A stretch of DNA of 64,000 nucleotides from Metabacillus litoralis (GTDB taxonomy: Bacteria; Bacillota; Bacilli; Bacillales; Bacillaceae). The translations under genes were made by a program, and so were the position numbers. The notes under the pieces were generated by a model. It was not told the origin of the DNA. It saw only the letters and a program-made list of their open reading frames with translations, and did not search any database. Of the stretch, positions 56,869 through 59,682 are shown in pieces (position 1 is the stretch's first letter; each line of letters begins with the position of its first letter). The DNA is taken from positions 310,001 through 374,000 of the forward strand of contig NZ_VOQF01000006.1 of the NCBI RefSeq assembly GCF_007994985.1, read 5' to 3'.

Positions 56869-56898
56869 AAAAAGCTGACCCCGAAGAGTCAGCTTTTT
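56869..56898 (-). terminator. Terminator overlapping the metC stop
   Basis: AAAAAGCTGAC pairs with GTCAGCTTTTT; the metC stop codon TGA lies inside the first arm. Confidence 0.9.
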
Positions 56899-58064
56899 AC
56901 AGTCACAGCAGGCAATTTCGCAAATGCTGCTTCAAAATCTGCAATTAAGTCTTCAGCTTTTTCCAAGCCTACACTTAATCTTAACAATCCATCTGAAATG
57001 CCACGTTTTTCTCGTTCTTCTGCAGGCATTGCCGCATGTGACATTTTTGCCGGATAAGAAAGAATCGATTCCACAGCACCTAAACTTACTGCAAACACTG
57101 GTAATTTCACATGTTCAACTAACAGCTTTACTGCCTCAAAATCAGCAACTTTAAAGGATAATACAGCTCCAGGACCCTTTGCTTGATAGCGATGTGTGTC
57201 ATGACCTGGATGATAGCTTAAGCCTGGATAATAAACAGCTTCAACTTTAGGATGATCAGCTAAGTAGGCAGCAATTTTTTCAGCCGATTCTTGTGATTGC
57301 TTTAGTCGTACATGCAAAGTTTTCAATCCTCTTAAAACTAACCATGCGTCCTGAGCACCAAGTACAGCACCAAAGGCATTTTGTAGTTTGTATAAACGAT
57401 TACCCAATTCCTCATCCTTTACAACTGCTAGACCTGCTAATACATCACTATGTCCTGCTAAAAACTTCGTTGCACTGTGAAGGACAACATCAACACCTAA
57501 TTCGATTGGACGCTGAAGTTCTGGTGTTAAAAATGTATTATCTAAAAATGTAAGACAATTATTAGCTTTAGCCAGATTAACAATGCCTTTAATATCAGTT
57601 ACCTTCAACAAAGGATTTGATGGTGTTTCCATATAGATGACTTTTGTATTTGGGCGTATTTCTGAAGCTACTTGATGCAAATCTGTCATATCAACAAAAG
57701 TATGTTCAATACCGAATCTTGTTAAAACATCTGTGATAATACGGAAAGTTCCACCATACACATCTTCTGTCACAAGCACGTGATCACCTTGTGAAAGCAG
57801 CAAGAAGGAAGTTGAAATAGCTGCCATTCCTGAAGAAAAAGCTAATCCTCTTGCTCCACCTTCTAATTCAGCGATTGCCTGTTCTAATGCTTCACGTGTT
57901 GGATTTCCTGATCGTGCGTAATCATATTTACCAAATTCTTCAACATCAAATTGATGAAATGTTGAGGAATGATGAAGAGGAACACTTACCGCTCCTGTTC
58001 CTTTGTCAACCTTTGATTCATTATGCAACAGCTTTGTTTGAAAAGACCAATCATGATTGCTCAA
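56889..58064 (-). CDS. metC: Cystathionine beta-lyase
   Basis: 391 residues of the Cys/Met PLP family. The PLP lysine is in HSATKFLAGHSDVLAG near residue 200, with SGMAAISTSFLL and the phosphate-binding YGGTFRI upstream. It is close to B. subtilis MetC along its length (for example AVSLGAVESILSYPA). It converts cystathionine to homocysteine, the step after MetI. It overlaps metI by 14 bp, so the two are translated from one message under the SAM riboswitch. Confidence 0.95.
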   Translation of the reverse strand: MSNHDWSFQTKLLHNESKVDKGTGAVSVPLHHSSTFHQFDVEEFGKYDYARSGNPTREALEQAIAELEGGARGLAFSSGMAAISTSFLLLSQGDHVLVTEDVYGGTFRIITDVLTRFGIEHTFVDMTDLHQVASEIRPNTKVIYMETPSNPLLKVTDIKGIVNLAKANNCLTFLDNTFLTPELQRPIELGVDVVLHSATKFLAGHSDVLAGLAVVKDEELGNRLYKLQNAFGAVLGAQDAWLVLRGLKTLHVRLKQSQESAEKIAAYLADHPKVEAVYYPGLSYHPGHDTHRYQAKGPGAVLSFKVADFEAVKLLVEHVKLPVFAVSLGAVESILSYPAKMSHAAMPAEEREKRGISDGLLRLSVGLEKAEDLIADFEAAFAKLPAVTVKS

Positions 58065-59175
58065 CTGCTTCAGCTCCCTTCATTTGTTTAAATGCTTGTG
58101 CTAAATCTGACGTAATATCTTCTGCATGTTCAATTCCTACTGAAAAGCGCAACAGCTTATTACAGACACCATTTGCGATTCTAATTTCTTCTGGAATATC
58201 CATATGAGTTTGTGTGGCTGGATATGTGATAAAGCTTTCAATACCACCAAGACTTTCAGCAAATGTAACCATTTTTAGATTTTTTAAGAATGGATTGATC
58301 CAAGCTTCGTCTTTTAACCTGAAGGAAAGCATTCCACCTTTTCCTGGATATAACACATCTTGAACATCTTCATGATTCTCTAAAAATTCCGCAACTTGCC
58401 TAGCATTTTGCTCATGCTGCTTCATGCGTAGAGATAATGTTTTCATACCTCTCATTAACAGCCATGAATCAAATGGAGCCAAAACTGCTCCGATTGCATT
58501 TTGATGCATGAAAAACTCTTCACTAAGCTTCTCACCTTTAGTAACAACAAGACCTGCAAGAACATCATTATGTCCGCCTAAGTATTTTGTTGCACTATGG
58601 ATGACAATGTCAGCTCCATCTACTATCGGTGTTTGAATCACTGGAGTATAAAACGTATTATCAACAATCACTAAAATGTTATGTTTTTTTGCGACTGCAA
58701 CAAGTGCTTTTATGTCCGCTTCTTGCATTAATGGATTTGTTGGTGTTTCGATAAATAATGCTTTCGTATTTTCATTTATTAGCTTTTCTGTTTCAGCTGG
58801 TTTTGTAAAATCATCATATTGGAAATTTAGACCGTATTTTCTCCATTCTCTTTCAAAAAGACGGTATGTTCCACCATATAAATCAGAGGATACAATCAAT
58901 TCATCTCCACTTTGAAATAATGCCATGATCGTTTGAATTGCAGCCATTCCAGAGCTAAAAGCAAACCCTCTATCTCCATACTCTAAATCTGCGATTGCAT
59001 TTTCAACTAGTAATCTAGTTGGATTACCTGTGCGGATATAATCAAAGCCAGTTGACTCGCCAATACCTGCATGACGATATGCAGTAGAAAAATAGACAGG
59101 TGGATTAACCGTTCCCGTTACATTTTCACTTCTATTTCCAATTTGCGCTAATTTCGTTTCAATACGTTGATTCAT
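58051..59175 (-). CDS. metI: Cystathionine gamma-synthase / O-acetylhomoserine thiolyase
   Basis: 374 residues from the ATG at 59175, opening MNQRIETKLAQIGNRSENVT like B. subtilis MetI; longer starts run into the leader. PLP lysine in HSATKYLGGHNDVLAG, and ESFITYPATQTHMDIPEEIR near the C-terminus. It joins activated homoserine with cysteine or sulfide. Upstream lie an intrinsic terminator and a SAM-I riboswitch. Confidence 0.95.
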   Translation of the reverse strand: MNQRIETKLAQIGNRSENVTGTVNPPVYFSTAYRHAGIGESTGFDYIRTGNPTRLLVENAIADLEYGDRGFAFSSGMAAIQTIMALFQSGDELIVSSDLYGGTYRLFEREWRKYGLNFQYDDFTKPAETEKLINENTKALFIETPTNPLMQEADIKALVAVAKKHNILVIVDNTFYTPVIQTPIVDGADIVIHSATKYLGGHNDVLAGLVVTKGEKLSEEFFMHQNAIGAVLAPFDSWLLMRGMKTLSLRMKQHEQNARQVAEFLENHEDVQDVLYPGKGGMLSFRLKDEAWINPFLKNLKMVTFAESLGGIESFITYPATQTHMDIPEEIRIANGVCNKLLRFSVGIEHAEDITSDLAQAFKQMKGAEAVEQS

Positions 59176-59243
59176 TATCTTCACCATCCTAATTAGAAAA
59201 GTATGTAATTGAGAGGAAGGATTATGTTGTTTAAACACAAAAT

Positions 59244-59272
59244 AAAAAGTCTCCCTCGTTAAGAAGAAGACT
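59244..59272 (-). terminator. Riboswitch-controlled terminator of metI-metC
   Basis: AGTCTTCTTC pairs with GAGGGAGACT (two G-U pairs) around TTAAC, followed by TTTTT. The 5' arm can also pair with AAGAAG of the riboswitch P1 3' strand, giving the antiterminator. Confidence 0.85.
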
Positions 59273-59289: not shown

Positions 59290-59682
59290 CCTTCTTATCT
59301 CTCAAGCATAAAAATGCTGATGTTGGCTTGCTGGATTTAGCACCTTGGCACTCGTGGAAGTTTTTGTTTGGTTTTAGAGATTGTTGATACTGTATTTTGT
59401 TATAGAAACATCAAATTTAGTATTGTGTTAGTTTTTTTCAGCAAGCAAGCTATCGCTTGCTTACGGCTTGCTTTTGCAAGCCTTCGACTGATAATGAAAA
59501 ATGCTTCGAACAAACAAGAACTCTTTGTTCGCTTCATTTTTCATTATCAGTCGTGCTGTAAAAAACATACTAAATTTAATTTTCCGAACGTAGCAATATC
59601 AACGGTACCAAATCTTCACTCGTTTTGAACCGGTTGCTGAGGCTTCATAGGGCCAGTCCCTCTGCCTCTCTTGATAAGAAAA
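59290..59682 (-). promoter_or_regulatory. SAM-I (S-box) riboswitch with giant P3 arm
   Basis: The 5' core reads TTCTTATCAAGAGAGGCAGA, then GGGACTGGCCCTATGAAGCC, then TCAGCAACC (59682-59632). The 3' core reads AAGGTGCTAAATCCAGC (from 59346 down), then P4 CAAGC...GCTTG, then TGAGAGATAAGAAG (to 59290). P1, the k-turn motif and the SAM-binding strands match the S-box consensus. Between the halves, at P3, lie 285 nt (59347-59631) of nested inverted repeats instead of about 20-30 nt. It senses S-adenosylmethionine and ends transcription before metI when SAM is high. Confidence 0.92.
59485..59553. repeat. Long hairpin inside the riboswitch P3 arm
   Basis: Arms CGACTGATAATGAAAAATG (59485-59503) and its exact complement (59535-59553) enclose further pairing GAACAAA/TTTGTTC. 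Flanking pairs are GGCTTGC/GCAAGCC (59465-59482), ATACTAAATTT (59567-59577 with 59413-59423) and TATCAAC (59597-59603 with 59383-59389). Confidence 0.9.

Follow-up and report, generated by a model that had tools for sequence, protein, structure and literature searches.

The window analysed here, a stretch of 64,000 nt from Metabacillus litoralis (NZ_VOQF01000006.1, positions 310,001 to 374,000), lies on contig 56 of an assembly of 75 contigs and 4.9 Mb. On its minus strand it carries a metI-type gene (58051-59175; methionine biosynthesis PLP-dependent protein, NF006095) and a metC-type gene (56889-58064, start codon provisional; cystathionine beta-lyase, NF005976), both identified by gene-family match. 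Among named species, the closest in MetI were Metabacillus litoralis SaN21-6, with a best segment at 100%, and M. crassostreae, at 98%. Upstream of metI-metC, on the same strand, lies a SAM-I (S-box) riboswitch (59680-59292), and between this and metI an intrinsic terminator was found (59238-59272), with a 10-bp stem (stem part 59272-59248) and a T-rich tail. A promoter-like sequence, TTGAGA-18-TATAAT (59305-59276, minus strand, 11/12), was also observed between aptamer and terminator, three such sites being counted against 3.4 in shuffled sequences; it was set aside, as by eye the relatives do not keep the site.

A covariance-model search, which had been proposed as a check in a previous reading made from the sequence only, was carried out with the Rfam SAM model (RF00162) and gave a match of 50.3 bits on the minus strand, above the gathering score of 44.4. 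The match ended at 59541, within the long hairpin of the P3 arm, and thus misplaced the 3′ half, because the true 3′ half lies 287 nt away. The 5′ half of the aptamer (59632-59680; P1 5′ strand, P2 with its loop, and the GCAACC of P3) was aligned by Rfam and showed a between-species difference of about 0.01. The 3′ half (59292-59344; GGTGC of P3, P4 region and the P1 3′ strand GATAAG) was read directly and could be aligned in relatives, in agreement with the earlier claim that both S-box halves are intact. Between GCAACC (59637-59632) and GGTGC (59344-59340) 287 nt were measured, close to the 285 nt given by the sequence-only reading, and these constitute the P3 arm (59345-59631). The CTGG of the P2 loop appeared by eye to be complementary to a CCAG in the 3′ half, and the two may form the P2-loop to J3/4 pseudoknot which, with a kink-turn, belongs to the SAM-I class. 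As the gathering score was passed, both halves with P1, P2 and the base of P3 were present and an expression platform precedes methionine genes, the element is, by its sequence, a SAM-I (S-box) riboswitch with a giant P3 arm. It has in common with RF00162 both conserved halves, the P1-P4 layout, the terminator and the site before methionine genes; it differs in a P3 of 287 nt that ends in a conserved four-way junction, whereas the P3 of the family is a short hairpin, and in the misplacement of its 3′ half by the Rfam model. Besides SAM, Rfam families matched the arm only below the gathering score, and most of these matches were to microRNA precursors.

Folding of the window leader yielded -139 kcal/mol, compared with -79.2 ± 4.6 kcal/mol for 100 dinucleotide shuffles (z -13.2), none of which was as low. 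Concentric inverted repeats that pair from the outside in and lead to a perfect 19-bp hairpin had been described before; these nested repeats were recovered in the predicted fold, and the 19-bp stem was indeed perfect (59553-59535 with 59503-59485). Each strand of the outer layers comprises about 50-100 nt; these layers pair from the outside in, and the tip of the arm is a conserved four-way junction (59427-59568; alignment A2, model R1). R1 matched the window at 59428-59568 with 130.3 bits, a score that is high by construction, the window copy being part of the model. The closing stem of the junction has the 5′ strand GTTTTTTACAGCA (59554-59566) and the 3′ strand TGCTGAAAAAAAC (59431-59443); an example of such a stem is GUUUUUUACAGCAC/GUGCUGUAAAAAAC. 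It is followed by the long hairpin H1 (59485-59553), which has the 19-bp stem as its lower part, and by the two short hairpins H2 (GGCTTGC/GCAAGCC, 59465-59482) and H3 (AAGCAAGC-GATA-GCTTGCTT, 59443-59462). The base of the arm is flanked by a direct repeat ACGAGTG, with copies at 59617-59623 and 59349-59355. A frame of 86 aa runs over the arm on the plus strand; the core alignment, however, has gaps 1, 8 and 11 columns long, which argue against a conserved frame.

In an energy model that comprises neither SAM nor tertiary contacts, forcing P1 and the base of P3 placed the window RNA 4.1 kcal/mol above its unconstrained minimum, and 23 of 29 long-arm leaders of the genus had the canonical core itself as their energy minimum. 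The earlier view that the arm extends P3 rather than breaks it, leaving a foldable aptamer core, is borne out by these predictions. In the unforced ensemble with downstream sequence, the P3-base probability of the window RNA was 0.00, and 12 of the 29 leaders, the window included, stayed below 0.5. Cross-pairing in the window RNA was 0.05, no lower than the 0.04 obtained with shuffled arms; rounded per-nucleotide values were 0.00 in 17 of the 29 leaders.

MetI was matched in 20 of 21 genomes of the genus, and all 20 carry a SAM-I leader before metI. The P3 insert measured 176-287 nt in 17 of these leaders, whereas the remaining three had 105, 76 and 21 nt; among named genomes, the arm was present at 287 nt in Metabacillus crassostreae and at 276 nt in M. 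litoralis. H1 was absent from three leaders (L080, L084 and L088). In the family outside the genus, 58 genomes had MetI, and all 51 metI leaders read among them showed a short P3 of about 13-40 nt. Two findings had been named in advance as speaking against the element, a normal P3 in close relatives together with loss of SAM binding, and an assembly artefact; close relatives turned out to be long-armed as well, and occurrence of the arm in independent genomes ruled out an artefact. A recent insertion was likewise ruled out, by presence throughout the genus. The spacer between aptamer and metI was 227-296 nt long in L072, L076, L077 and L078, compared with about 115-130 nt in the other ten core species.

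Ten SAM riboswitches were detected by Rfam in the genome of the window itself. Six of these have a short P3 (14-24 nt in the four measured; L004 is also short, and L006 is short by Rfam alignment), three have an intermediate one (about 52 nt in L005, 83 nt in L008 and 88 nt in L009), and the tenth is the window copy. L005 and L007 lie on opposite strands of contig 34 with about 2.3 kb between them, and similar pairs of SAM-I riboswitches were seen in other genomes of the genus; one riboswitch of the pair has a longer P3 and precedes an mtnK-like gene.

A class-wide survey for long P3 arms was carried out with exact motifs separated by gaps of 161-221 and 222-282 nt, ranges that both fall short of the 287 nt of the window, in 398 genomes per pattern. 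As a positive control, the 222-282 pattern matched 14 of the 21 genus genomes. A lone aptamer with a P3 of this length was found at none of 40 loci taken from the 76 matches listed. The script flagged 21 loci with an inner 3′ half (tandem) and two candidates, of which L202 proved by its sequence to be a tandem riboswitch and L212 a chance match before a tandem pair. Tandem SAM-I riboswitches of other Bacilli accounted for 21 of the 40 loci (L199-L201, L203-L213, L215, L219, L221, L224, L225, L227 and L229, but not L214).

When 80 genomes of the family were searched with the junction model R1, 19 of the 21 genus genomes were matched, G020 only at E 0.22; outside the genus a single place was found, at E 0.82. 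In 12 genus genomes a second junction locus was detected, in the P3 of a SAM-I riboswitch belonging to a yitJ-type gene (by family match a bifunctional homocysteine S-methyltransferase/methylenetetrahydrofolate reductase, MTHFR, gene), where the inserts measure 244-366 nt; the arm of L179, for instance, is 289 nt long. The yitJ junction was divergent in G009 and G018, and most of H2 and H3 was missing in G017. In the remaining 8 of 20 yitJ leaders the insert measures 36-177 nt (83 nt in the own-genome copy), indicating, together with the 3 of 20 reduced metI leaders, that some species can do without the arm. The base of the arm and the junction are common to metI and yitJ, and the junctions of the two loci fell mostly into separate tree groups, with weak deep support. 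The longest insert seen, 366 nt in the yitJ-type leader L183 of G010, owes its length to further hairpins nested inside H1. The H3 motif AAGCAAGCGANAGCTTGC yielded five matches in the 21 genomes, two in metI arms and three in the arms of metK SAM-I riboswitches, and was restricted to these. The metK arms with the motif measure 180-246 nt, and two of the three adopt their own cross-shaped fold; metK is thus linked to the module in part, through a single motif shared by three closely related genomes.

Co-variation was determined in 14 aligned junctions, an alignment comprising the core species and omitting L080, L084, L088 and the three short-arm genomes. Of all cells 96.9% were paired, and changes on both sides were found in 15 of 51 pairs, where shuffles gave 4.9 and slid partners 1-2. 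The lower stem of H1 contributed 10 of its 19 pairs, while in H2 no co-variation could be counted because there was little variation. When metI and yitJ junctions were counted jointly (further omitting L070, L077 and L183-L186), 97.2% were paired and 17 of 54 pairs had changed on both sides, against 10.0 in shuffles. Over both loci, 5 of 13 pairs co-vary in the closing stem and 11 of 18 in the H1 lower stem; the letters of H2 and H3 are unchanged. Applied to the full-length leader, RNAalifold missed the arm owing to misalignment of the 3′ layers. As the outer layers align poorly, a cognate-strand test was used for them, and the mean pairing energy of outer strands with their own partners was below that of all 10000 permutations, both in 14 metI and in 11 yitJ leaders. 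In single leaders the own partner was strictly best in 4 of 14 (metI) and 4 of 11 (yitJ) cases, a foreign partner being equal or better in 10 of 14 and 7 of 11, since near relatives share strands.

Divergence was compared in 64 distant species pairs, defined by a fourfold-site divergence of at least 0.5 and involving 13 of the 14 core species. The junction differed by 0.16, fourfold sites by 0.57 on average, the spacer behind the aptamer by 0.30 and the 150 nt upstream by 0.33; all these values are lowered by the alignment, and the flanks are partly functional themselves, so that the contrast between junction and flanks is real but moderate. Within the junction, H3 (0.10) and H2 (0.13) diverged least, followed by the closing stem (0.15), the H1 lower stem (0.18) and the H1 tip (0.19). 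In a similar set of comparisons, the outer 5′ layer diverged by about 0.48 and the aptamer 5′ half by 0.01; no coding frame was found for L082, L085 and L087 in this set. Selection quite probably acts on the arm.

As a fairly probable reading, we propose that a SAM-I riboswitch controls the metI-metC operon by transcription termination and that its P3 is a largely self-contained folded domain with an independent task. The core and the terminator look intact, as in a SAM-dependent terminator. With SAM present, the ligand would bind the ordinary P1-P4 core, P1 would retain its own 3′ strand and the terminator would form; with SAM absent, the P1 3′ strand would pair with the 5′ strand of the terminator and metI-metC would be read. 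The concentric outer layers would carry the tip junction with its three hairpins, and the arm, folded in both states, would take no part in the choice of the switch and would be retained for a task independent of it. Since related species keep the arm, it probably has a job. Tentatively, this task might be to govern the fate of the leader RNA, through turnover by RNase Y, J1 or III or through docking of a protein. A role as timer is not favoured, because an arm between the aptamer halves adds no time from completion of the aptamer to the terminator; leader fate is preferred because the domain would stay folded in both states. In B. subtilis the leaders of SAM riboswitches are degraded by RNase Y (PMC3542257), which makes leader turnover a real control point. 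With the same caution it may be suggested that a genus-specific P3-cross module in several SAM-I riboswitches (metI, yitJ-type and partly metK) was selected for a sequence-specific function other than the sensing of SAM, e.g. docking of a protein or RNase for the fate of the terminated leader and the mRNA. If so, the P3 cross would be an add-on domain marking a class of transcripts.

The arm could instead be a variable insert that is merely tolerated. P3 faces away from the SAM pocket, any self-folding sequence would be harmless there, and the arm would have grown by hairpin duplication and template switching and be folded only to leave the aptamer unspoiled. In long palindromes, template switching can produce paired changes without selection, so the co-variation might have arisen in this way, and the range of 21-287 nt at one locus, the gain and loss of hairpins and the nested insert in L183 all suit such an origin. 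Stem-loop insertions at set sites are also a general property of riboswitches, the long ones being described as nonconserved in the available text of PMC2258182, and the P3 stems of TPP riboswitches, according to the accessible part of PMC4260697, vary from 7 bases to the 115 reached in algae and relatives with function apparently unimpaired. However, the junction diverged by only 0.16 where fourfold sites and the outer 5′ layer reached 0.57 and about 0.48, it is kept at two loci with the letters of H2 and H3 fixed beside co-varying stems, and such arms were missing from the 51 other metI leaders read in the family; we consider mere tolerance rather unlikely. The arm might also lengthen and stabilise the terminated leader, which would then pair with other mRNAs in the manner of Listeria SreA, a 229-nt terminated SAM riboswitch transcript that has a second role in trans (PMC8079631). 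The conserved letters of the Metabacillus leader lie mostly in stems and not in loops, and a trans-acting RNA is improbable here. The unformed P3 base in the unforced ensemble of the window RNA would be expected if the arm blocked formation of the aptamer and the element were decaying, but decay across the genus would then be expected too, whereas the 5′ half is near-invariant between species, neither half of the aptamer is missing, nor is the terminator, and forcing the core adds just 4.1 kcal/mol. A broken riboswitch is therefore the least probable of these explanations, and a very improbable one.

As to the origin of the arm, the sequence-only reading had thought of a MITE-like insertion. 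This was not supported for a dispersed element, as the own genome held no second copy and a search in relatives matched the junction only at SAM-I P3 arms. Besides itself and its own inverse, the best match of the arm in its own genome covered 42 bases (E 0.0145), phage and plasmid collections were not matched, and a joint model over 299 genomes of the order found the own genome and two weak partial H1 matches only (E 0.002 and 0.006). A direct repeat of 6-7 nt would fit a single ancient insertion. Most metI and yitJ arms carry this repeat, (A)CGAGTG, at either end, and its collapse would leave a P3 of 19 nt; in the window, a repeat of 7 nt was reached in 4 of 300 shuffles. Inverted GAAG(ATC) ends lie just inside the repeat, and both features also fit a base-paired arm. 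Another longest repeat was found in L073 and L081 and only 4 nt in L088, and metK arms, L185 and L186 have no repeat of this type. In a MetI tree calculated without G004, G017 and two outgroups, long arms occurred on almost every branch, G020 (212 nt, no H1) being deepest and the G008/G009 group shortened. The direct repeat suggests one old insertion that was later copied between two riboswitches. One ancient mobile element that entered P3 at the root of the genus, was recombined between riboswitches and is now functionless would account for the direct repeat with its 19-nt remnant, the inverted ends, and the arm base and junction that metI and yitJ have in common. Against it, a free copy was found neither in the own genome and the genus nor, the two partial H1 matches aside, in the 299 order genomes, phages and plasmids; most species retain the repeat, as would be expected of a structural role more than of a scar, and it deviates or is lacking in the leaders named above; and any helix is expected to have inverted ends. 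A functionless relic is rather improbable; ancient insertion as such is a question of origin and may be compatible with the independent P3 domain favoured here.

P3 of SAM-I riboswitches is usually regarded as a spacer of free length. In the giant arm described here the conserved part is the tip, found at two loci and with one hairpin at a third. The open literature, a scope outside which most subscription journals lie, yielded no account of SAM riboswitch arms in Metabacillus, and as far as it shows, the size of the arm, the conserved junction and the presence in two, partly three, riboswitches of the same pathway are new. With the riboswitch insertions covered in the accessible text of PMC2258182 the arm shares a stable fold and a permissive site outside the core, but its tip is conserved in the genus and at two loci. 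Extended P3 stems of TPP riboswitches resemble it in their very variable and apparently harmless length; they belong to another aptamer class and reach up to 115 bases, and the parts of PMC4260697 and PMC5882874 available mention no common conserved tip domain. Because a conserved tip occurs at two loci, the purpose of peripheral domains of riboswitches becomes testable by removal of the arm. A metK leader of G003 (L190, 1938-2004) scored 33.2 bits with Rfam, under the threshold of 44.4, apparently due to its long arm; together with the misplaced 3′ end of the window copy, this indicates that long-arm riboswitches may be under-annotated.
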